Positions 3,990-47,550 of a DNA stretch of 54,824 nt are shown in pieces. Both the position numbers and the translations under genes were made by a program. The stretch's first letter is position 1. The number at the start of each line of letters is the position of its first letter. Below the pieces are notes generated by a model that made no database searches, was not told the DNA's origin, and saw nothing but the letters and a program-made list of their open reading frames with translations. Origin of the DNA: an uncultured Chitinophagales bacterium. Its GTDB lineage: Bacteria; Bacteroidota; Bacteroidia; Chitinophagales; JAHDHT01. The DNA lies in NCBI GenBank assembly GCA_938023075.1, contig CALHDG010000106.1, positions 1 to 54,824 on the forward strand. Direction: 5' to 3'.

Positions 3990-4032
3990 TTGTCTTATTA
4001 AATCTAGCATATAATAACTATATTTTTTTTAG

Positions 4033-4165
4033 AAGCGAACCGGTGGAAACCATTTAGAAAGGGGCTCCCCGCTATCCGTTCAAATGCTGCGCCAACGCAC
4101 AGAGGCAAACGCTTCAGGCAGCATAACCACTGCTATCGGGGCTAAACTTCCAACATCATCACTCT
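4033..4165 (+). repeat. R1 palindromic repeat, copy A1 (core only)
   Basis: A long imperfect hairpin. The outer arms are CCCCGCTATCCGTTCAAAT and its partner ATAACCACTGCTATCGGGG. The inner arms are GCTGC and GCAGC. An AGCGAACC block precedes it and CTAAACTTCCAAC follows. The same layout recurs at 16369-16505 (same orientation) and, inverted, at 19652-19905, 26157-26868 and 47228-47478. It lies between the lipoprotein gene and the aldehyde dehydrogenase stop. No terminal inverted repeat was found around this copy. Confidence 0.85.
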
Positions 4166-4194
4166 TTAAATACGTACCCAATATATATACCGGG

Positions 4195-10318: not shown

Positions 10319-10542
10319 ACTTAAGTTTCGGTAGTAAAATAATTGCTGTTCCAATGGAACCCTGTTCCATTGTGTCAGCAAAAGCAAGGCAACTTTACTA
10401 CAACAAGTGAACCGGTTCACTTGGATGATTTTATGCTTTATATGTTGAATTAAGTTTACTTGACCTTATGGAGTACTTCAATTTCCATAAATAATTTATA
10501 TTCAAGATATTATGAAATGAATACTACTACCGAAACTTAAGT
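10319..10542. mobile_element. R2 inverted-repeat element (MITE-like), full copy
   Basis: A 224-bp element with 18-bp near-perfect terminal inverted repeats (ACTTAAGTTTCGGTAGTA and its complement). It is flanked by the direct repeat AACTGA at 10313-10318 and 10543-10548; including the element edge, GTAACTGA is repeated over 8 bp. Inside are GTTCCAATGGAAC and a perfect 20-bp palindrome at 10404-10423. It encodes no protein. The left 118 bp recur at 30227-30344. Confidence 0.8.
10404..10423. repeat. Perfect 20-bp palindrome inside R2
   Basis: CAAGTGAACCGGTTCACTTG reads identically on both strands. The copy at 30.3 kb has the same site with two changes that break the symmetry. It could be a protein-binding site or a replication/transposition structure. 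Confidence 0.7.
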
Positions 10543-13057: not shown

Positions 13058-16000
13058 ATGAAAAAATCAATTCTAATCCTTCTGTACCTTTTCATAACAG
13101 CATGGGCAACAGCACAAATAACCATTAGCGGCTTAGTAACCAACAAATCAGGTGAAACGCTGATAGGTGTAAACGTTATCGAAACGGGCACAACCAACGG
13201 CACCTCTACCGACATTGACGGTAAATATACCTTAACAGTAAACAATGCCAACGGAAGTTTGACCTTTCGATACTTGGGAATGCAAGAACAAACCCTTGCC
13301 ATTGAAGGACGTAATTCTATCGATCTTGAAATGCAAAGTGATTCACAACTGCTCGATGAAGTGGTAGTAACCGCGCTCGGCTTCGAAGAAAGAAAAGACG
13401 AAATGGGTGCCAGTTCAACCACCGTTGATAGTGAAGCAGTAGCACGTTCTGGCGAAACGGGGGTTATTAATGGTCTATCAGCTAAAGCCTCTAATGTACG
13501 AATTATCCGCTCAAATGGCGACCCGGGCGCGGGCAGTTCCATACGCATACGAGGCGCCAATACTATTACCGGAAACGGCTCGCCCTTGATTATCGTTGAC
13601 GGGGTTCCACTAGGCAACTCCACCGATTACGGCGGTGGTAACAACGTTACTGGTGGCACTACAGGCGGCGTATCTCAACAGTCGCGCCTTAACGACATTA
13701 ATCCGAACGACATTGCTTCGACAACGGTGCTAAAAGGAGCATCGGCGGCTGCCTTATATGGTTCTCGTGCAGCGAATGGCGTAATTGTAATTACCACAAA
13801 AAACGGAGCACTCGGCAAACCAAAAATTTCATACAAAGCCTCAATTTCTTTCGACCAGGTAACCGAACGTGTTCCGATGCAAACCACTTGGGGACAAGGC
13901 AGAAATGGTTCCTACAGCCCAACCAGTGCCGAATCTTGGGGTGATTATATTCCTGACAGAGCAGGAGGAGCAGATCTGTTTGAAGAAGGAGCATCATTTT
14001 TTACTGCCGACGATGGTACAGTGTACTATCCGATTGAGGAGAAAAACTCAACCGAAACTTTTGTCGATTCTAATTGGGATAACGTTTTCCAAACGGGCGG
14101 TTTTCTACAACACGATTTTTCCATTGCTGGAGGTAGTGACCGGTTTACTTATTATTTCGGCTTGGGAAGACTTGATCAGGAAGGCATCATAAAAAACTCG
14201 TTCTACGATCGTACCAATGTTCGCTTTAATAATAAAACCTTTCTTACCGATTGGCTTACTTTAACTACCAAATCATCCTATACACTTACAGGCTCTAACA
14301 GAATTCAGCAAAACTCCAATGTTTCAGGTTTAATGTTGGGCTTTCTGCGTACACCACCTGATTTTGATATTACAGATTATAAAGGAACTTACACCGATAG
14401 CCCAGGCATTTTCTTTGAGCAACGCCAACGTTCTTACCGGAGATATTTGGGTAATGCAGACAATCCAACCTATAATAATCCGCTATGGACCATCAATGAG
14501 CAATCTGCTACTACCAACGTTAACCGTTATGTGATTAATCCTCAATTAGATATTACACCAACCAATTGGTTACGCTTTATTTTAAGAGGAAGTGCCGATA
14601 TTTCGGATGACCGGCGGGTCTATTTCTTCCCGATTGGTTCAGGCAGCGATAGAACACCTGGTATTTTCGCCGAAGATATCATCGGTAGAAAAGCTATTAA
14701 TTTTGATGCTATTACCAAAGCCAATTTTAATTTGGCAGATAACATTGGCTTAGCAACAACTTTAGGTTGGAGTATTAACGACCGTCGCTACCGCCGTAAT
14801 TCAGGGCAAATAACCGGCTTTTTAGCCAACGCCCGCAAAGAAACCACCTCTTTAAGTACCGCAGCAGAAAGTTCTCAATTTGAAGTTTTCCAAACCAATA
14901 GAAGATCGAACCGGGCTTATGGAGTCTTAAGTTTCGATTTGTTTGAACAGGTATTCTGGAATGTATCTGCCAACCTCGAAGCCTCCTCAACCGTTAAAGG
15001 GCAGTTCTTTTATCCTGCAACCGACATCGCCTGGAATTTTGCAGAAAATGTTGGTCCCCTCTCTTTCGGAAAACTTCGCGCAGCTTGGGGTAGAGTAGGT
15101 GTTGAACCCACTCCACACCGTTTCCAAACCGTTGCCGAAAGTGGTTTTAGCTACAGCACTTATAGCGATCCTCTTGATATTTCTTTCTTTGGGGGCAGCT
15201 TCCGCATTGATGATGATTTAGGTAATCCTGAACTTAAACCAGAAATTAAAACGGAGTGGGAAGTTGGAACTGACTTACGATTTTTGCGAGACAAATTGGG
15301 GATAGGTATTACCTATTATAACAACACAATTGATGATGTTTTAATAAGCCTGGCACTATCACCGTCATCGGGTTACGACACCCAATATGGTAATTTTGGC
15401 GCGATAAAAAACAATGGCATTGAGTTAGATTTAAATTGGCAGGCTTACCAAAATGCTGATATGAAATTGGATGTAACCGCCAACTTTTCACGAAACCGGA
15501 ATGAAGTAACCGATCTTTTTGGCACAGAAACCATCAACTTAACACCCGGCGCATCAATAAGCAGTCGAGCCATAGTTGGGCATCCTTTGGGCGTGTTGTA
15601 CGGCACCGGTTCTCAAAAGGACGAAGCCGGCAATTTCATTTTAGATGAAAACGGCTTTCCACAACTCACAGCAAGCCCAGAAGTATTGGGCGACCCCAAT
15701 CCTGACTGGCGATTGGGCGGTGGCTTTAACGTATCGTGGAAGGGCTTAACCCTCAACGCAGTCATCGAACATTCACATGGCGGCGAATTTTCACCACGCT
15801 CACTATGGGTACTCCGTCGCTTTGGTACTACCCAAGAAACCGCCAACCGCCTCACCCTCGATCAACCGCTCCTCAATTTTGATGGCGATGAAATTGCCGC
15901 CGGAACAACCGTGCGAGGCAACATAGAAGACTTTGGCGGCGGTCCTGTACTGTTAGATGAAACCTGGTATCGTCATGGTATTGGAGGCGGTTTTGGCGAT

Positions 16001-16270
16001 AACCAAGTATATAATTTTTCCATAGCTGATGCTACCTTTACTAAAGTACGCGAGCTATCATTAAGCTATCAATTGGGCAGCCAATTGTTCAACGAAAAAA
16101 TCAGTGGCATTAAGGTTGGCATAAGCACCCGTAACTGGATTTATTGGGACCGCATTGACGGCATTGACCCCGAAATTAGCCAAACCGGTGTGGGTAACGG
16201 GCAAGGTTTAGAGTACTTCACCAACCCTGCCACCAAATCATTCTTAGTTACATTCGGTGTAGATTTTTAA
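13058..16270 (+). CDS. SusC/RagA TonB-linked outer-membrane transporter
   Basis: A TonB-dependent outer-membrane channel that pairs with a SusD lipoprotein to import large substrates. It has a signal peptide MKKSILILLYLFITAWATAQ. A carboxypeptidase-regulatory-like domain follows (ISGLVTNKSGETLIGVNV...GKYTLTV, residues about 22-95). Next are the TonB-box region LDEVVVTALG and the plug domain (SIRIRGANTITGNGSPLIIVDGVPLG). The long C-terminal beta-barrel ends in an aromatic strand (SFLVTFGVDF). The 1070-residue length is typical. The partner susD follows after 48 bp. No glycoside hydrolase or regulator is nearby, so the substrate cannot be inferred. Confidence 0.96.
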   Translation: MKKSILILLYLFITAWATAQITISGLVTNKSGETLIGVNVIETGTTNGTSTDIDGKYTLTVNNANGSLTFRYLGMQEQTLAIEGRNSIDLEMQSDSQLLDEVVVTALGFEERKDEMGASSTTVDSEAVARSGETGVINGLSAKASNVRIIRSNGDPGAGSSIRIRGANTITGNGSPLIIVDGVPLGNSTDYGGGNNVTGGTTGGVSQQSRLNDINPNDIASTTVLKGASAAALYGSRAANGVIVITTKNGALGKPKISYKASISFDQVTERVPMQTTWGQGRNGSYSPTSAESWGDYIPDRAGGADLFEEGASFFTADDGTVYYPIEEKNSTETFVDSNWDNVFQTGGFLQHDFSIAGGSDRFTYYFGLGRLDQEGIIKNSFYDRTNVRFNNKTFLTDWLTLTTKSSYTLTGSNRIQQNSNVSGLMLGFLRTPPDFDITDYKGTYTDSPGIFFEQRQRSYRRYLGNADNPTYNNPLWTINEQSATTNVNRYVINPQLDITPTNWLRFILRGSADISDDRRVYFFPIGSGSDRTPGIFAEDIIGRKAINFDAITKANFNLADNIGLATTLGWSINDRRYRRNSGQITGFLANARKETTSLSTAAESSQFEVFQTNRRSNRAYGVLSFDLFEQVFWNVSANLEASSTVKGQFFYPATDIAWNFAENVGPLSFGKLRAAWGRVGVEPTPHRFQTVAESGFSYSTYSDPLDISFFGGSFRIDDDLGNPELKPEIKTEWEVGTDLRFLRDKLGIGITYYNNTIDDVLISLALSPSSGYDTQYGNFGAIKNNGIELDLNWQAYQNADMKLDVTANFSRNRNEVTDLFGTETINLTPGASISSRAIVGHPLGVLYGTGSQKDEAGNFILDENGFPQLTASPEVLGDPNPDWRLGGGFNVSWKGLTLNAVIEHSHGGEFSPRSLWVLRRFGTTQETANRLTLDQPLLNFDGDEIAAGTTVRGNIEDFGGGPVLLDETWYRHGIGGGFGDNQVYNFSIADATFTKVRELSLSYQLGSQLFNEKISGIKVGISTRNWIYWDRIDGIDPEISQTGVGNGQGLEYFTNPATKSFLVTFGVDF

Positions 16271-16318: not shown

Positions 16319-17926
16319 ATGAAAAAGAATCAATTAATTAAACATATAGAAAATTTAGTTTTATTTGTAGCGAAACGTTTGGGTCATCTAAAAACGCGCT
16401 CCCCGCTATCCACTCAAATGCCATTTTGCCAATACTACAAAACCAACGCTTCAAATGGCATAACCGCTACTATCGGGGCTAAACTTCCAACTTCATCCGT
16501 ATTTAAAAACTTCGCCAAAGTCACAAAATCAATGCTCTTTGCAATGCTAATTATAATGGCATCTTGCACCAGCATTGTTGATGACATCAACGACAACCCC
16601 AATGATTTGGCAATTGACGAAGTAGATGCCGAACTCTTTTTAACCGGCGCACAACTCGCCAACGTAGTAGCTCAGGGTGGACATCTCAACCGCATTGCCG
16701 GCATGTATTCTGGTCAATTAGTAGGTATCACCTCACTATATTCCAACATTTATGGCTACGCTTTCTCCACGGCAGAATCCGTCTCTACCTGGAGTCGCAT
16801 CTATATTGGAGTAGTGACCAACGCCCGCCATATAGTAAACGAAGCCCCCAACGACAAACTGTTAACCGGTATCGCCAAAGTATTAGAAGCCCATGCCATT
16901 GGCACCGCAGCTTCCATTTTCGGCGATGTACCCTATTCCGAAATTAACAACTTAGCAATTGACGACCCCAAATTTGACGACCAAATTTCGGTTTTCAATG
17001 CCACGCAAAGTCTGTTAGATAGTGCCATCGAAGACCTCGCAGTATCTAGCAGATCACTAAGTTGGGATATTCACTTTGGAGGTAATTCAGAAGCATGGCG
17101 AGAAGTAGCCTATACCCTCAAAGCCCGTTATTATTTACAATTGAAAGCATACGATTCTGCCTATGCTGCTGCTATCAACGGTATTAGTTCTGATGCTAAC
17201 TCCATGAAATTTATACCGCGTGGTGATGCCAACAATTCAGAAGGAGACAAAAATTTATTTTGGGAAATCCTTGAAGGATCGCGTGCCGGTGACATTGGTA
17301 CAGTAAACAGCTACCTGATGCAATTGTTAGATGCCTCTAGCGACATCAGTCGCAATAACGCCAAAACCAACGAAAGTGCACGTTTCGGTTACTACACTAT
17401 TAATGAAGATGGCGGTTCTGACAACAAAGGAATCATAGAACAATTTGAACCACAAAACTTAGTCTCTTATGCCGAAAACCAATTAATTTTAGCCGAAACC
17501 GGCACGCGCACCCAAAGTATAGATAGCGGTTTGGAAGCCCTTAACAATCTCCGTGCATGGCTTAACACTGGGGCTGGCGTTAACACAACTTTTAGTGATT
17601 CAATATTTTTATATGAAGCATATGAATTAGCAGATTTTGAAGAAGGTGGCATAGAAAATACAGACGGCATCCCCACCGACAGAGCCTTACTACGAGAAAT
17701 TATAGAGGAACGATACGTCTCTGGTTTTGGCATGTATCTTCCCTTTAATGATGCACGGAGGTTAAGAAAGAGCGATAGTGATATAGCAGTGCCCTATGTT
17801 TTAGTTGATGGACCTGCTGCACCATACCCGGAGCGCATGCCTTATTCCGATGATGAACTCAACGCCAACGAAAATGCCCCTGCCGAAGATCCGGGTATTT
17901 TTGTTAAGACGAAGGTTAATGAGTAA
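16319..17926 (+). CDS. SusD/RagB-family lipoprotein with repeat inserted in leader
   Basis: Surface lipoprotein partner of SusC that captures substrate. The mature part starts at the lipobox cysteine in LIIMASC (residue 83 from ATG 16319) and has SusD-type features: the TPR-like regions around SGQLVGITSLYSNIYGYAF and VAYTLKARYYLQLKAYDSA, and a C-terminal ALLREIIEERYVSGFG...NDARRL segment. Normal SusD signal peptides are about 20 residues. Here about 45 codons of an R1 palindromic repeat lie in frame between MKKNQLIKHIENLVLF and the apparent original signal sequence (FKNFAKVTKSMLFAMLIIMASC). Either the leader is extended or translation starts internally, for example at ATG 16532. Confidence 0.92.
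   Translation: MKKNQLIKHIENLVLFVAKRLGHLKTRSPLSTQMPFCQYYKTNASNGITATIGAKLPTSSVFKNFAKVTKSMLFAMLIIMASCTSIVDDINDNPNDLAIDEVDAELFLTGAQLANVVAQGGHLNRIAGMYSGQLVGITSLYSNIYGYAFSTAESVSTWSRIYIGVVTNARHIVNEAPNDKLLTGIAKVLEAHAIGTAASIFGDVPYSEINNLAIDDPKFDDQISVFNATQSLLDSAIEDLAVSSRSLSWDIHFGGNSEAWREVAYTLKARYYLQLKAYDSAYAAAINGISSDANSMKFIPRGDANNSEGDKNLFWEILEGSRAGDIGTVNSYLMQLLDASSDISRNNAKTNESARFGYYTINEDGGSDNKGIIEQFEPQNLVSYAENQLILAETGTRTQSIDSGLEALNNLRAWLNTGAGVNTTFSDSIFLYEAYELADFEEGGIENTDGIPTDRALLREIIEERYVSGFGMYLPFNDARRLRKSDSDIAVPYVLVDGPAAPYPERMPYSDDELNANENAPAEDPGIFVKTKVNE
16369..16505 (+). repeat. R1 palindromic repeat, copy A2, in frame within susD
   Basis: Outer arms CCCCGCTATCCACTCAAAT and ATAACCGCTACTATCGGGG enclose inner arms GCCATTT and AAATGGC. 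It shares the flanks AGCGAAAC and CTAAACTTCCAAC with the copy at 4033-4165. Both A copies read open in this direction and encode a shared peptide tail (IGAKLPTSS). The repeat leaves the susD frame intact. Confidence 0.88.
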
Positions 17927-19651: not shown

Positions 19652-19905
19652 AGCACGCTTATAAAAGTTGTTGATACTTGCTTGTTTTTGACTGCCATTG
19701 TTTTATAGGAATGCTACGAAGAACCGAAGTTTATAAACTAGCCCCGATTGCAGCGGTTATGCCATTTTGAGTGGCTTTTGCAGCGCAGGCAAATGGAATT
19801 TGAGCGGAAAGCGGGAACCAAGGTTATTATAATGCTACAAGGTTTCGCTTCAAAAAAAAATCAATGTAAAAGTATCAACTATTTTATGGTTTGGATAAAC
19901 TTGTC
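19652..19905 (-). mobile_element. R1 element, copy B1, between P450 and terpene cyclase
   Basis: The core hairpin has CCCCGATTGCAGCGGTTAT...ATTTGAGCGGAAAGCGGG outer arms, inner arms GCCATTT and AAATGGA, and the GGTTTCGCTTC tail. It lies inside degenerate terminal inverted repeats (left ending GTTGTTGATACTT, right AAGTATCAACTA...GGATAAACTTGTC). The sequence is more diverged than copy B3 and no clean target-site duplication remains. It ends 33 bp before the cyclase start, so it sits where that gene's promoter should be. Confidence 0.8.
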
Positions 19906-22653: not shown

Positions 22654-22658
22654 GATAT

Positions 22659-22839
22659 TATACCAAATTGACCATAAAATGTAACACAAATTTCGGTTTA
22701 ATATTGGGAGTTACTGAATCAAGTTCAGTACAAGCTCTTTGTTAAAAATACTTGCCATAGCCGTTGGCTATGTCTGTGTTTGAGCTCACCAAATTAATCC
22801 CAAAATTTTTGTGTCACTTTTTACAGTCAAATTGATATA
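22659..22839. mobile_element. R4 inverted-repeat element, copy 1
   Basis: A 181-bp element with about 35-bp imperfect terminal inverted repeats. The left starts TATACCAAATTGACCATAAA; the right, reversed, starts TATATCAATTTGACTGTAAA. The interior has CATAGCC-GTT-GGCTATG and ACTGAATCAAGTTCAGT hairpins. It begins 5 bp after the prenyl synthase stop. A 182-bp sister copy lies at 27806-27987 and a right half at 31483-31547. No coding capacity. Confidence 0.78.
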
Positions 22840-22882
22840 ACTGCTATGCGACTATGCCAATTATTATTTCTATTTTGATAAC

Positions 22883-26147: not shown

Positions 26148-26324
26148 GGAATTTTAGACAAGTTTATCAAAATGGATGAAACTTTTCTGTTTTTTGATTG
26201 TTCGTATTTTTTGTCTTTCAACGAAGAACCGAAGTTTGCAAACTAGCCTCGATTTCCAAGCCAACAGCACTAAAGTGCATTGGGTTATTTAGCAGCTAAA
26301 TGTTGTTTTTCGAATGGAAAAATT

Positions 26325-26420
26325 CGTCATTCAACATTCGGTGTTCGATATTCGATATTTTTTTGGATGACCATTTAATGAACAACGAATATCGATTAAC
26401 GAATAATGAATGTTGAATTA
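26325..26420. repeat. Imperfect inverted repeat (ATTCAACATTC arms)
   Basis: The left arm runs CATTCAACATTC...TTCGATATTCG and the right arm CGAATATCGA...GAATGTTGAAT. It lies in the sequence inserted into R1 copy B2, just before the MITE, and looks like another small palindromic unit. Confidence 0.5.
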
Positions 26421-26467
26421 TTTTTAATGTATAAATAAATTACATTCAATATACCGAAAGACACTTA

Positions 26468-26693
26468 GGCTACCCGTCTAAGCCCGGACACCCACGTCAT
26501 ACTGAGACCTGTGCTGAACTTGATTCAGTATCTGGAGCGAAGCGGAATAAATGCTCAGTATCTCCCGGCTACTTCAATCAACGTTAATATAACCAATACG
26601 CTGTTTCAATATGACAGATTCTGAGCAAGCTACTTCACTTCGTTCAGCACCTTCTCAGAATGACGGTTTTTGTCCGGTGTTAGACGGGTAGCC
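26468..26693. mobile_element. 226-bp MITE nested in R1 copy B2
   Basis: Terminal inverted repeats begin GGCTACCCGTCTAA with 14 perfect bp and remain similar for about 40 bp (both arms contain CCGGACA and CGTCAT-CTGAGA). It is flanked by the perfect 8-bp duplication GACACTTA at 26460-26467 and 26694-26701. There is no coding capacity. An 8-bp duplication fits several DDE insertion-sequence families; the parent is not in this window. Confidence 0.88.
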
Positions 26694-26882
26694 GACACTT
26701 AGATAGAATTGCAGCGGTTATACCATTTTTGCTTGGGCTTCGAAGCGTTGGCAAAATGGTATTTGAGCGGAAAGCGGAACCAACTTTATTGTATTGTTGG
26801 AAGGTTTCGCTTCAAAAAAAATATTAGTGCAAAAGTATCAGCTACTTTTATTGTTTTGAGAAACTTGCGGAATTTTACTTTA

Positions 26883-27542: not shown

Positions 27543-27650
27543 AATAAATTTAGATCTCCATGGTTTAAATTCCAAATTCCAACTTGCGTACTACTGGTTT
27601 TGTTATTGGGTTATGAGATTTGGAATTTATTTTTGTTTACAAAATAAAAA

Positions 27651-27750
27651 AAGGCAAGGACCCCACGTCGACCGCTACAACCGTCTACCCTTGCTCGCTT
27701 CCGCGCCTGGGGGAGTTCAACAGGAGCTGGCCACATGAGGCTTGCCGAGC
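27651..27750 (-). ncRNA. ffs: Signal recognition particle RNA (bacterial small type)
   Basis: Read on the minus strand, a long rod closed by GGCAAG/CTTGCC. Its helix pairs CCTCATGTGGCC with GGTCGACGTGGGG and reaches the conserved apical domain CAGG-CGC-GGAA-GCG-AGCA. That apex contains the GGAA tetraloop and the AGG/AGCA internal loop that bind Ffh. CCTTGCC followed by seven Ts gives a built-in terminator. TACTTTTG just upstream (27752-27759) matches the -7 consensus. Helix 8 and the tetraloop are diagnostic; exact ends are estimated. Confidence 0.88.
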
Positions 27751-27751
27751 G

Positions 27752-27759
27752 CAAAAGTA
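27752..27759 (-). promoter_or_regulatory. -7 element (TACTTTTG) of SRP RNA
   Basis: Exact TAnnTTTG on the minus strand, ending a few bases before the first paired bases of the SRP RNA, as expected for a transcription start at about 27748. Confidence 0.55.
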
Positions 27760-27805
27760 ATAACTTTTTTAGAACTCCTGCACTTTACTTATTTTAAATT
27801 CTAAA

Positions 27806-27987
27806 TAATACCAAATTGACCATAAAATGTAACACAAGTTTTGGTTTAATATTAGGAGTTACTGAATCAAGTTCAGCACAAGCTCTTCGTTAAAAATACT
27901 CGCCGTAGCCGCTTGCTATGTCTGCGTTTTTTGCCTTAAGCTCACCAAATTAATGCTCATTTTGTGACGTAAAGCTTGTGGTATTAT
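27806..27987. mobile_element. R4 inverted-repeat element, copy 2
   Basis: A 182-bp sister of 22659-22839. It shares CCAAATTGACCATAAAATGT at the left, ACTGAATCAAGTTCAGCAC, and AGCTCACCAAATTAAT near the right. The outermost ends are TAATACCA and its complement. It is inserted between the SRP RNA promoter region and the kdsA stop. Confidence 0.78.
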
Positions 27988-30226: not shown

Positions 30227-30406
30227 ACTTAAGTTTCGGTAGTAAAAATAATTGCTGTTCCAATGGAACCTGTTCCATTGTGTCAACAAAAGCATGACCA
30301 CTTTACTAAAACAAGTGAACAGGTTCGCTTGAATGATTTTATGCTTGAAGTAGATCGGAAAATCTCAAAGGTAAAAATGGACAGTTATTTTTGAATTATT
30401 CCTGAG
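30227..30406. mobile_element. Chimera of R2 (left) and R3 (right) repeat halves
   Basis: Bases 30227-30344 match the left part of R2 at 10319-10437 almost base for base, from ACTTAAGTTTCGGTAGTA to GATTTTATGCTT. At about 30346 the sequence switches to the right part of R3 as in 43356-43416 (GAAGTAGATCGGAAAAT...TTTTTGAATT). Neither element is complete. The junction suggests recombination or nested insertion followed by deletion. Confidence 0.75.
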
Positions 30407-31482: not shown

Positions 31483-31547
31483 ATGCCTTGAGCTCACCAA
31501 ATTAATTCCAAAATTTGTGTGTCATATTTTACAGTCAAATTGGTATA
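31483..31547. repeat. R4 element, right-half fragment
   Basis: GAGCTCACCAAATTAATTCC through ACAGTCAAATTGGTATA, matching the right ends of the other two R4 copies. The left half is missing. Confidence 0.75.
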
Positions 31548-31876
31548 AGACATTGTGTCGCTCCTCTGGAGCTTAATCTTTTTGTAACCTATCTGCTAAC
31601 AAGGTTTTACTCCGCTGGAGTTTGTTTTAGTCATTGAAAAAATATTTACTACAAATTTAATAATGCTACTTTGAGAGATAATCTAACTATCTTGACCTTT
31701 TGTCGCGAAAGGCTTATCTACTGAGAGTAGTTATAATATCTTAACGGGTAATATAGATAATAGTCTGTTGACCTTTATATTGGTTTGTACTATTTCCATT
31801 AAAATGGTTGTAGAACCAATAAAAATTTGTTGGAACTACATCATAAATAGAAATTTAAATTTTTTGAATAGATAAA
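31548..31876. other. Gene-free gap with two CTCC-GGAG hairpins
   Basis: There is no gene. Two small hairpins occur: GCTCC-TCT-GGAGC (31560-31572) and ACTCC-GCT-GGAGT (31609-31621). They form a degenerate pair 49 bp apart. The rest is AT-rich without clear structure. Confidence 0.5.
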
Positions 31877-36153: not shown

Positions 36154-37113
36154 TCACATCGCAACACTTTCAAGGCTTTTAAAAAATCGTTTACTTCTAA
36201 TTTTACTAAATCCTTGCTTTAATTTATCTAACGACATTAAGATGAAAAACGGTTGACCAACAATATGATTTTCTGGTACAAAACCCCAGTATCTTGAATC
36301 TAACGAATTATGCCGGTTATCGCCCATCATAAAATAATAATCCATTGTAAAAGTGTAAGAAGTAATTGGTTTGCCGTCAATTATAATTTGTTGTCCGTTT
36401 TGTGTCAATTTCAAACTTTCATTTTTAGTAACAATATCTTTATATAAAGCAATATTAGCAGGATTTAAATCAATGGTTTCTCCCTTTTTAGGAATGGTAA
36501 TAGGTCCATAATTATCACGAGTAAATTTAAAGTTTACAGTATCAAAGGGGAAAATTCTATCATCTACCTTTTGTTCTAAGTCTGCCGAAGCTGTAATTTT
36601 CTCAACTACAGGTATCTGTTTAATTTTATCAGCGTTTTCTTTTGTTAATGTTAGCAAATAGGTGTCTTTTTCTATATTGACATTTTCATTAGGATTAGAT
36701 GATATACCAAATCTTTCTCTTAGTTTATTGATGCTTAACGGAGCATTATTTTTTGTTTTAACCAGATATCGCTCTTGATAATGTTGTGGATTTTCTACTG
36801 CATTTCCATTAATAAATACTTGTCCATTTTTAAGCTCAAATTCATTTCCAGCTTTTGCTACACACCTTTTAATATAATGTGTATTGCCATCAACAGGAAA
36901 TCTAAAAATGACGATATCATTTAAATTGATTTCAGCGCATAAGCCAACGCTTTTTAAAAAAGTGTTGTGGCACTGATTTGAATAAATATAATCACCAACT
37001 AATAAAGACTGTTCCATTGCCGGTGTTGGAATAGAATAAAACCGAAAAAAACAAACCCATATAAATAATACTGAAAATACAATTACAGCAAGTACGATAA
37101 GTATTTTTTTCAT
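36154..37113 (-). CDS. Signal peptidase I paralogue lacking the catalytic serine
   Basis: A 319-residue paralogue of the adjacent LepB, with one N-terminal membrane segment (residues 4-23) instead of several. The box B segment reads [15 protein letters not shown], with Ala32 (GCA) where the nucleophile Ser is expected. The general-base region YIKRCVA and the late [18 protein letters not shown] box are intact, and overall similarity to LepB is high through the C-terminus. It follows lepB by 17 bp, so it is co-transcribed. It is predicted proteolytically dead by the Ser/Lys mechanism; a scaffold, regulatory or chaperone-like role is speculative. Confidence 0.9.
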
Positions 37114-37130: not shown

Positions 37131-38573
37131 TTACATCGCAATACTATTCGGGCTACGCAACAACCTACTCCATCTAATTTTACTAAATCCTTTTTTAAAT
37201 TTATCTAAGGACATCCAAATTAAAACGGGTTTACCCACCACATGATCTTCTGGTACAAAACCCCAAAATCTGGAATCTAATGAATTGTGCCGGTTATCGC
37301 CCATCATAAAATAATAATCCATTGCAAAAGTATATTCGGTTGCGGGCTTACCATCTATAAAAATTTGATCGTCTTTTTGTTCCAATTGATGCCCTTCATA
37401 TAAAGTAATTAAACGTTTATACAAGGCAATGTTTGATGCCTCCAATGTAACTGTTTCTCCTTTTTTAGGAATGGTAATTGGTCCGAAATTATCAGCTGAA
37501 AATTTGAAATGAGCGGTATCTGATGGAAAAGCTCTTAGATTTACACCTTGTTTTAAACTTGCCGAAGCAGTAACTTTTTCTACCACCGGTAACTTTTGCA
37601 TTTTTTCAACATTCTCGGGAGTTAAGGTAAGCGAATAAGTACCTGGTCCAAAAGGAATATTTTCATTTTCATTGGAAGATAATCCCATTTTTTCACGAAG
37701 TTTATTAATACTTAATGGACGACCATCCTTTGTCTGTACCATATATCTTTCTTCGTACTTCTCCGGATTTTTACCAATTGCTCCATTTATATAAATTTGC
37801 CCATCTTTTACTTCAATTTCATCACCTGCTATTGCTACACATCGCTTAATATAATTTTCTCTTTTGTCAACCGGTCTAAAATCTTCTATTGGATAATTAA
37901 ACACGACAATATCATTGCGTTTAATGTCTTGAAATCCCCATAACCGTTTGTAGGGCCATTTTAACCATTCAACATAAGATTTGGTATTAATAAGCGGAAT
38001 GGTATGATGCACCAGCGGGAAAGCCAAAGGCGTGTTTGGTACACGAGCTCCATAATTTACTTTGCTCACAAATAAATAATCACCCACTAATAAAGATTGC
38101 TCCATAGATGGAGTTGGTATAGTATAAGCCTCTATTAAAAACATACGAATAAAAGTAGCCGCAACAACCGCAAAAATGATGGCTTCTGTCCACTCGCGGG
38201 CAGTAGATTTACCTTCGCCTTTTTCAAACGCAATCTTCTTTTCTGGTGTCAAATATTGCGTTTCTTCCTGATGCGCCATTAGCGGTGTATATACCGGTGA
38301 TGCCAACAAGCCAAAAAAAGTTTGATACCATTTAAATTTACCAAAACTTTTTAGCAATTCAGCTTGCATTAAAATAATATATAAAATATTAACCAAGGGG
38401 ATAAACAACCAAATCATCCAGGTTTTTGGCTTACCCATCATTTCAATTCGCTCTTTCCAATTTAAAATAGGTACAAATGCCTTCCAGGCAGGTCTTCCGG
38501 CTTTTACAAACAAACGCGAAAGCCCATAATAAAAAAGTAGCAGACAAATAATAATAAATAAAAGAAAACCCAT
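37131..38573 (-). CDS. lepB: Signal peptidase I
   Basis: Cleaves signal peptides at the outer face of the inner membrane. It is 480 residues, large as in many Bacteroidota. The N-terminus has membrane segments (GFLLFIIICLLLFYYGL, WMIWLFIPLVNILYIILM, EAIIFAVVAATFIRMFLI). Catalytic Ser156 is in [20 protein letters not shown], the general-base Lys in ENYIKRCVAIAGDEIEV, and box E is [18 protein letters not shown] long insertion between boxes D and E is shared with the dead paralogue. It is the first gene of the pair, 15-20 nt downstream of a good -7 element. Confidence 0.95.
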   Translation of the reverse strand: MGFLLFIIICLLLFYYGLSRLFVKAGRPAWKAFVPILNWKERIEMMGKPKTWMIWLFIPLVNILYIILMQAELLKSFGKFKWYQTFFGLLASPVYTPLMAHQEETQYLTPEKKIAFEKGEGKSTAREWTEAIIFAVVAATFIRMFLIEAYTIPTPSMEQSLLVGDYLFVSKVNYGARVPNTPLAFPLVHHTIPLINTKSYVEWLKWPYKRLWGFQDIKRNDIVVFNYPIEDFRPVDKRENYIKRCVAIAGDEIEVKDGQIYINGAIGKNPEKYEERYMVQTKDGRPLSINKLREKMGLSSNENENIPFGPGTYSLTLTPENVEKMQKLPVVEKVTASASLKQGVNLRAFPSDTAHFKFSADNFGPITIPKKGETVTLEASNIALYKRLITLYEGHQLEQKDDQIFIDGKPATEYTFAMDYYFMMGDNRHNSLDSRFWGFVPEDHVVGKPVLIWMSLDKFKKGFSKIRWSRLLRSPNSIAM

Positions 38574-43251: not shown

Positions 43252-43416
43252 CTAAAGAATGATGAAAAAATAAATGTTCAAATTTTAACAAAGAGATTTT
43301 TTGATATACAAGTTAAAAAACGCAGGCTTAGTGGTGCTAAGACGAGTATTTTTAATGAAGTAGATCGGAAAATTTCAAAGGTAAAAATGAACAGTTATTT
43401 TTGAATTGTTCCTAAG
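43252..43416 (+). mobile_element. R3 inverted-repeat element, copy 2
   Basis: 165 bp running from CTAAAGAATGATGAAAAAAT to TTTTTGAATTGTTCCTAAG. The internal hairpin is CTTAG-TGGTG-CTAAG. It is inverted relative to 34033-34198, and its right 61 bp also form the right part of the chimera at 30346-30406. It lies 87 bp upstream of ccmB. Confidence 0.75.
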
Positions 43417-46839: not shown

Positions 46840-47073
46840 ATATCATTAATTCAATAACTCGTTAAATTAACACAAATATTAATATATTTTATTAAAAGAC
46901 AAGCTGTGGTATCTTCCAACTACTTTTGCTAAAGTTAGCACAAACAATACTCTTTTTCAATCGGACAGATTTTGAGCAAGCCCTATTTACTGTGTTCTAG
47001 GATAGGTAATAAATATCAACTACCTCTTTTTAATTTGGCTTTGTAGAGGTCGCAATTTTTGCGATCTAATTTT

Positions 47074-47169
47074 TTGCTTGCAAAAAATATTTTTTATTTG
47101 GAAGGTCGCAAAAATTGCGATCTCTACGGTATTATAAAAAGGCAACTAGTTGTTTTTGGATATTTTACC
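47074..47169. repeat. Local direct repeat, unit 1 (uninterrupted)
   Basis: A 96-bp unit running TTGCTTGCAAAAAATATTT, TTTGGAAGGTCGCAAAAATTG, CTCTACGGTATTAT, AAGGCAACTAGTTGTTTTTGG. Unit 2 starts near 47197 and resumes at 47486, interrupted by R1 copy B3. This unit therefore shows the empty insertion site. Confidence 0.82.
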
Positions 47170-47227
47170 GAAAATTGGAAACGTTTGCAACCTTTTCTTG
47201 CTTGCAAAAAATATTTATTGTTTGGAA

Positions 47228-47478
47228 AGACAAGTTTATCAAAGTGGTTGATACTTTCATGTTATCGAGTGTCCTTTTTTTATCTTTCTACGAAGAACCG
47301 AAGTTTGCAAACTAGCCCCGATTGCAGCGGTTATGCTGCCTGAAGCGCAGGGTTTTGCAGCGTTGGCGCAGCATTTGAGCGGAAAGCGGGACTACCTTAT
47401 ATGAAAAGCCTAATGGTCTCGCTTCAAAAAAAAATTATGCAAAAGTGTAAACTACTTTATGGTTTAGATAAACTTGTT
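47228..47478 (-). mobile_element. R1 element, copy B3 (complete)
   Basis: A 251-bp complete element. The ends are AGACAAGTTTATC and, reversed, AACAAGTTTATC, followed on each side by a GTTGATACTTT or AAAGTGTAAACTA block. The core hairpin has outer arms CCCCGATTGCAGCGGTTAT and ATTTGAGCGGAAAGCGGG with inner arms GCTGC and GCAGC. TTTGGAA is duplicated at 47221-47227 and 47479-47485. Confidence 0.88.
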
Positions 47479-47485
47479 TTTGGAA

Positions 47486-47550
47486 GGTCGCAAAAATTGT
47501 GACCTCTACGGTATTATGTAAAGGCAACTAGTTGTTTTTGGATATTTTTC
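47486..47550. repeat. Local direct repeat, unit 2 (right part)
   Basis: GGTCGCAAAAATTGTGACC through CTAGTTGTTTTTGGATATTT, matching 47105-47167. Its left part is 47197-47227, on the other side of R1 copy B3. Confidence 0.8.

Follow-up and report, generated by a model that had tools for sequence, protein, structure and literature searches.

How a dispersed palindromic repeat can lie in frame within the export leader of a lipoprotein, and what then becomes of the peptide that it encodes, are the questions raised by a susC-susD locus in the 54,824-nucleotide stretch of DNA analysed here, which we refer to throughout as the window. A gene for a susC-like TonB-dependent receptor (13058 to 16270, forward strand, 1070 aa) is followed by its partner, a susD-like lipoprotein gene (16319 to 17926, forward strand, 535 aa), whose product matches the Pfam families SusD-like_2 (PF12771, 3.4e-20) and SusD-like (PF12741, 5.3e-11). 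The lipobox cysteine of this protein is residue 83 (codon 16565-16567), preceded by a leader of 82 residues with 12 K/R against 1 D/E. A preliminary description of the window, made from the sequence alone, had placed a palindromic repeat in frame between the susD start codon and the lipoprotein signal, and this holds: the susD reading frame is open through the copy, the HMM core of which lies at 16359-16503. The bounds then given, 16369-16505, are too short; the flanks of the repeat subfamily (left TTATTAACC..GGCATATA.., right ..GCCACCAGGTTAATAA), the HMM core and alignment to insert-free orthologues together yield an R1/Flavo-1-like palindromic element of about 16335 to 16526, with ends uncertain by several bases. 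Elsewhere in the window (27648-27754, minus strand) lies a Bacteroidales small SRP RNA (RF04183, 68.1 bits).

The closest orthologues of this SusD, from two Saprospiraceae MAGs (CALHBW010000061.1, here L271, and JAHDEO010000198.1, here L272), are 85% and 84% identical to it from residue 70 onward, and their leaders, MKNYIKSIIFTMLIFMASC and MKNYIKSIFFTMLIFMASC, are 18 residues long and free of the insert. Native sequence restarts in the host gene at AAATCAATG (16526-16534, K70-S71-M72), the counterparts of which in the orthologues are AAATCAATC and AAATCAATA, and the remainder of the native signal peptide with its lipobox cysteine (KSMLFAMLIIMAS, 16526 to 16567, forward strand) aligns to KSIIFTMLIFMASC of L271. 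Remoter homologues (38-75%) whose leader frames are cleanly readable have ordinary short leaders, and the N-terminal 60 residues or so, the uniqueness of which had been put forward for checking, are absent from every homologue with a readable leader. Because orthologues of 84-85% identity have 18-residue leaders and no repeat, the susD repeat is an in-frame insertion relative to them. An assembly chimera at susD was considered and is unlikely, since susC and susD adjoin in the orthologues too; the 3' end of susC is syntenic with the end of SusC in L271 and L272 (GTAGATTTTTAA, then stop), and the host susD ATG at 16319 lies 48 nt past the susC stop.

The insert is flanked by two copies of the 7-mer AATCAAT (16328 to 16334 and 16527 to 16533, forward strand), which are 199 nt apart and out of frame with each other, and at the left site the orthologues that lack the insert share AAAATCAAT. 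The pair is suggestive of a target-site duplication but could be a chance match. Looked at for the traits of a MITE, the subfamily ends (TTATTAACC..GGTTAATAA) are inverted and the susD copy has this 7-bp pair, but no general duplication was established. The susC-susD spacer of L271 and L272 carries a different palindrome (CCGTACCGACGACTTTAGCCGTCG ... CGACGGCTAAAGTCGTCGGTACGG) in the last 100 nt or so ahead of the ATG, and the spacer seems to be a site at which palindromes recur.

The repeat is a subtype of Flavo-1 (RF01705), a candidate structured RNA without assigned function (Weinberg 2010, PMC2864571), and the susD copy is a divergent member that falls below the family cutoff; this identity, which lies on the strand opposite to susD, had escaped the preliminary description. 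The match in susD (16395 to 16484, minus strand, antisense to the gene) falls short of the gathering score of 42, at 33.6 bits (E 8.2e-6 on 201 nt), and appears only in E-value mode, a search of Rfam at the gathering threshold returning nothing at the repeat. Against the covariance model the four full copies in the window score 41.3, 37.4, 33.6 (susD) and 32.4 bits, all of them below 42 and all on the strand opposite to the open frame of the repeat. The assignment is made because matches elsewhere in the host genome reach 65.9 bits, with dozens above the cutoff of 42; because loci from the genomes of the phylum that hold the core pattern of the repeat (24 of 296, with none in the reversed control) carry the canonical element, CCCGCTATCCGCTATATCTTTT...AAAAGGATGCCGCTGCTATCGGGGCTA; and because the stem covaries without a break, an alignment of 29 copies that includes the one in susD giving 11 pairs, of which none is broken and 6 are changed on both sides. 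When the repeat itself was used as a DNA query against relatives of the order, only chance pieces of 22-36 nt were returned, because Flavo-1 diverges fast and the covariance model is needed to find it.

Host repeat and described RNA have in common the consensus UAGCCCCGAUUGAAGCGG...GCGGAAAGCGGGA, the stem layout and a distribution restricted to Bacteroidota, RF01705 matching 16 of 41 genomes (the host and its relatives) and 0 of 14 controls. Unlike Flavo-1 as described, the host repeat behaves as an insertion of high copy number, with which an orthologous site may be filled or empty, and a part of its copies lie within reading frames, mainly in antisense orientation. In Flavobacterium psychrophilum, Flavo-1 matches have been reported in sense and antisense orientation to transcripts alike (PMC9723704).

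Further copies in the window lie at 4024 to 4167 (forward strand, with the Flavo-1 match at 4061-4147 on the minus strand), at 19716 to 19859 (minus strand; the 41.3-bit match, 19736-19822, plus strand) and at 47290 to 47433 (minus strand; the 37.4-bit match, 47310-47397, plus strand), and a profile match marks a partial copy at 26708 to 26821 (minus strand). The first of these is intergenic and had already been recognised as a relative of the susD copy; it has, as was then said, the same orientation, an open frame and the peptide IGAKLPTSS. Some Flavo-1 copies (window 26150-26860 and 47070-47548) form part of a more extensive composite repeat whose ends are inverted (AAAGTAGTTGACACTTTTGCAT ... 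GAAAGTATCAACCACTTTGATAAACTTGT), which suggests a bigger palindromic element. Several further families of intergenic repeats with no relation to Flavo-1 (D2, D5, D9 and D10) recur in the window at 90-93% identity (22657-22840, 27805-27929, 31488-31548, 10361-10438, 30269-30406 and 43356-43416), and dispersed repeats are unusually abundant in the host genome. A 300-nt direct repeat of 75% (36156-36455 and 37133-37432) falls in two neighbouring minus-strand genes, which are likely to be tandem paralogues.

Across the host genome (6.12 Mb, 288 contigs) BLAST finds the repeat at 41 places, and a 22-nt stretch of it, allowing at most 3 mismatches, occurs at 90 places against 0 for the reversed control, a frequency well beyond chance. 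The 2.27 Mb that were read (about 37% of the genome) contain 259 copies; these stretches were picked for carrying copies and are a non-random sample, and it is by proportion from them that the genome total comes to several hundred. Copies that do not overlap genes are found within 60 nt of a gene 3' end (74) far more often than within 60 nt of a 5' end (12), and 55 of the 74 that lie behind a stop codon have their open frame on the strand of the gene. A search of a phage collection gave no match.

The capacity of the element to be read through is intrinsic to it: of 207 copies, 87 have frame 0 open over their whole length and only 3 and 7 have the other two frames open, and frame 0 carries an ATG (CAAATGCC). 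We counted as an in-frame fusion a copy whose frame is open through the repeat and for at least 470 nt beyond it, into the downstream gene. Ten of the 259 copies in 2.27 Mb, SusD included, are open in this way, which answers the earlier suggestion that other copies within genes be sought, and all ten directly precede a Sec signal peptide. A repeat in an export signal, previously called unusual, is accordingly the rule for in-frame copies in these 2.27 Mb, none of them being internal or joined to the C-terminal end of a recognised gene. Besides SusD, the genes concerned encode a PD40 protein (L186), LptC (L229), a DUF3108 protein (L235), a protein with a T9SS sorting domain (L065), an M28 peptidase (L172) and four exported proteins without a convincing Pfam family (L201, L230, L231 and L234). 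In L234 the Flavo-1 copy is separated from the signal peptide by a second, low-complexity stretch (KFPNYKTQIPNSKSKTQNSSLKTRQSK, 14138-14400), and junk seems to accumulate in this leader. A profile search of the whole genome yielded only one further long open case on frame 0 (C93:9769-9969, 1214 aa), which is likely to be another in-frame fusion.

Several candidates were set aside. L223 was left out of the count for its short frame of 116 aa and weak signal, and L240 (lipoamide dehydrogenase), considered as a cytosolic in-frame case, proved to be open in part only, with an ATG of its own beyond the repeat. The 389-aa frame at L216 6592-7762 consists mostly of dispersed repeats, two oppositely oriented Flavo-1 copies among them, holds no recognised gene and is probably not one. 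Nor do we read selection into the use of frame 0 by 7 of the 8 forward in-frame copies, since frame 0 is the only one that is commonly open.

In-frame copies are biased to signal-peptide genes. Signal-like N-termini occur in 19.1% of the 1238 genes called on the same sequence, and genes with a non-overlapping copy no more than 150 nt upstream stand at that background level (11 of 60, 18%). The difference in signal-peptide frequency between in-frame and non-overlapping copies gives a Fisher p of 9e-7, or 3e-6 without L172, on a home-made score of hydrophobicity and cleavage motif that was devised after the cases had been seen, the start codons of the in-frame cases being assigned by eye. When real copies are placed at random upstream of genes, 3.5% read through in frame; for the roughly 70 upstream copies about 2.4 chance fusions are expected, mostly non-secretory, against the 10 secretory and 0 fully open non-secretory fusions observed.

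Where translation of susD begins bears directly on the fate of the repeat. The best start is the ATG at 16319 to 16321 (forward strand; MKKNQLIKH...), from which the gene is most likely translated, judging by its distance from susC, its A-rich, unstructured context (local fold from -30 to +33 of 0.0 kcal/mol) and the basic residues that follow, which resemble orthologue leaders of the form MKNYIKS.... An in-frame ATG within the element (16418 to 16420, forward strand, CAAATGCC), the equivalent of which several in-frame copies carry in their open frame, would give a leader of 49 residues. The preliminary description had left the choice between a greatly extended n-region and initiation at the ATG bordering the hydrophobic core (16532 to 16534, forward strand); of the two the extended n-region is the better supported, and 16532 is rejected as the main start, as it leaves MLFAMLIIMASC, 11 residues without a basic n-region, and has a local fold of -7.1 kcal/mol. 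A search for a Bacteroidota promoter (TANNTTTG) within the repeat, upstream of 16532, gave no good candidate. The sister cases point the same way: six (L229, L231, L234, L230, L201 and L065) have no ATG between the repeat and the hydrophobic core, and therefore, barring initiation at some rarer codon, translation must begin upstream of the repeat or within it and cover at least part of it, and L229, L231 and L234 have no GTG or TTG there either. Against this, L172 carries an ordinary ATG downstream of the repeat, and in SusD, L186 and L235 an ATG lies at or inside the hydrophobic core.

The account that we consider probable is that a Flavo-1-family palindrome was inserted into the susD leader, past the start codon and ahead of the hydrophobic core of its signal peptide, is translated through and is then cleaved off, and that this forms part of a genome-wide, RPE-like tolerance of the element before signal peptides. 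The intrinsic open frame would let translation from ATG 16319 pass through the repeat, so that the SusD precursor would gain a basic leader of 82 residues in place of about 18. The lipoprotein signal would still direct Sec export, and signal peptidase II would cut off the whole leader at Cys83, leaving mature SusD unchanged. The bias itself may then arise from selective tolerance: elsewhere in a coding sequence the added peptide would stay and be selected against, and in-frame copies would survive solely ahead of signal peptides, the one place where the added residues are removed. For export tolerance, discard of the leader and counter-selection elsewhere we draw on established secretion biology and on the distribution of the copies.

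It is unlikely that the repeat instead lies in a 5' untranslated region, with initiation at ATG 16532 or a nearby non-ATG codon and a frame that is open by chance. That ATG does exist, the frame of the element is often open regardless of context, and a frame ahead of a native start may be open by chance, as is partly so in L240; yet the resulting leader, MLFAMLIIMAS, lacks a basic n-region, orthologue leaders begin 18 residues before the cysteine, and the ATG lies in folded RNA. Such an arrangement would also leave unexplained both those fusions in which no start codon follows the repeat and the presence of every in-frame copy at a signal peptide when non-overlapping upstream copies show no bias. 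We regard it as very unlikely that the element supplies its own start, SusD being made with the 49-residue leader from ATG 16418 and the upstream codons going unused. The sole ATG before the signal peptide of L230 is indeed that of the element, which is in frame in SusD, L186, L231, L234 and L230, but L229, L201 and L172 have no element ATG in frame, and SusD has a better placed start in the unstructured context at 16319. That susD is decaying, the insertion having disabled its export or expression and the frame being open only through recency, is highly improbable. The insert more than quadruples the leader and the expression of susD is only predicted, but the 535-aa frame is intact (undated relative to the insertion) beside an intact susC of 1070 aa, it is kept across some 200 nt of foreign sequence, and the same arrangement is found in nine other genes, LptC among them.

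The probable account, a leader insertion that is translated and discarded, has its closest parallel in the Rickettsia palindromic elements (RPEs; PMC10969869), which the preliminary description had aptly cited. Like these, the host repeat is a palindrome of about 150 bp that brings its own open frame and has entered genes in phase, where orthologues lack it; its host belongs to a different phylum, Bacteroidota, and we liken the two by behaviour and do not claim descent from an RPE. RPEs have been reported in unrelated metabolic genes (PMC10969869) and are spread over diverse genes and positions, internal ones among them, unlike the host repeat with its ten of ten in-frame copies before signal peptides and none internal, and no signal-peptide bias of RPEs was reported in the literature searched. 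A longer basic n-region should be compatible with export, as export signals tolerate long extensions: autotransporter signal peptides with a long N-terminal extension before the hydrophobic core are exported (PMC2805444). In autotransporters the extension belongs to a domain organisation that one class of proteins conserves, whereas here a repeat supplies it in proteins of a single genome that are unrelated to one another. The element is thus already known, as Flavo-1, and its behaviour is RPE-like; the signal-peptide bias is the new part.

A wider reading is possible, though we hold it only tentatively: that Flavo-1 is a mobile palindrome rather than primarily an sRNA, that its ATG-bearing frame suits secretory genes, and that signal-peptide leaders are a coding safe harbour across Bacteroidota, where the element can give exported proteins new translated presequences, perhaps together with a hairpin by which expression is tuned. 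Since 2010 Flavo-1 has been catalogued as a structured RNA to which no function is attached; that it is present at one site and absent from the orthologous one argues for its spread as an inserting palindrome. For genes fused to the repeat, the prediction of signal peptides and start codons can be expected to go wrong. The signal-peptide bias, finally, amounts to a simple and testable rule, that coding insertions survive where the cell cuts the added peptide off.
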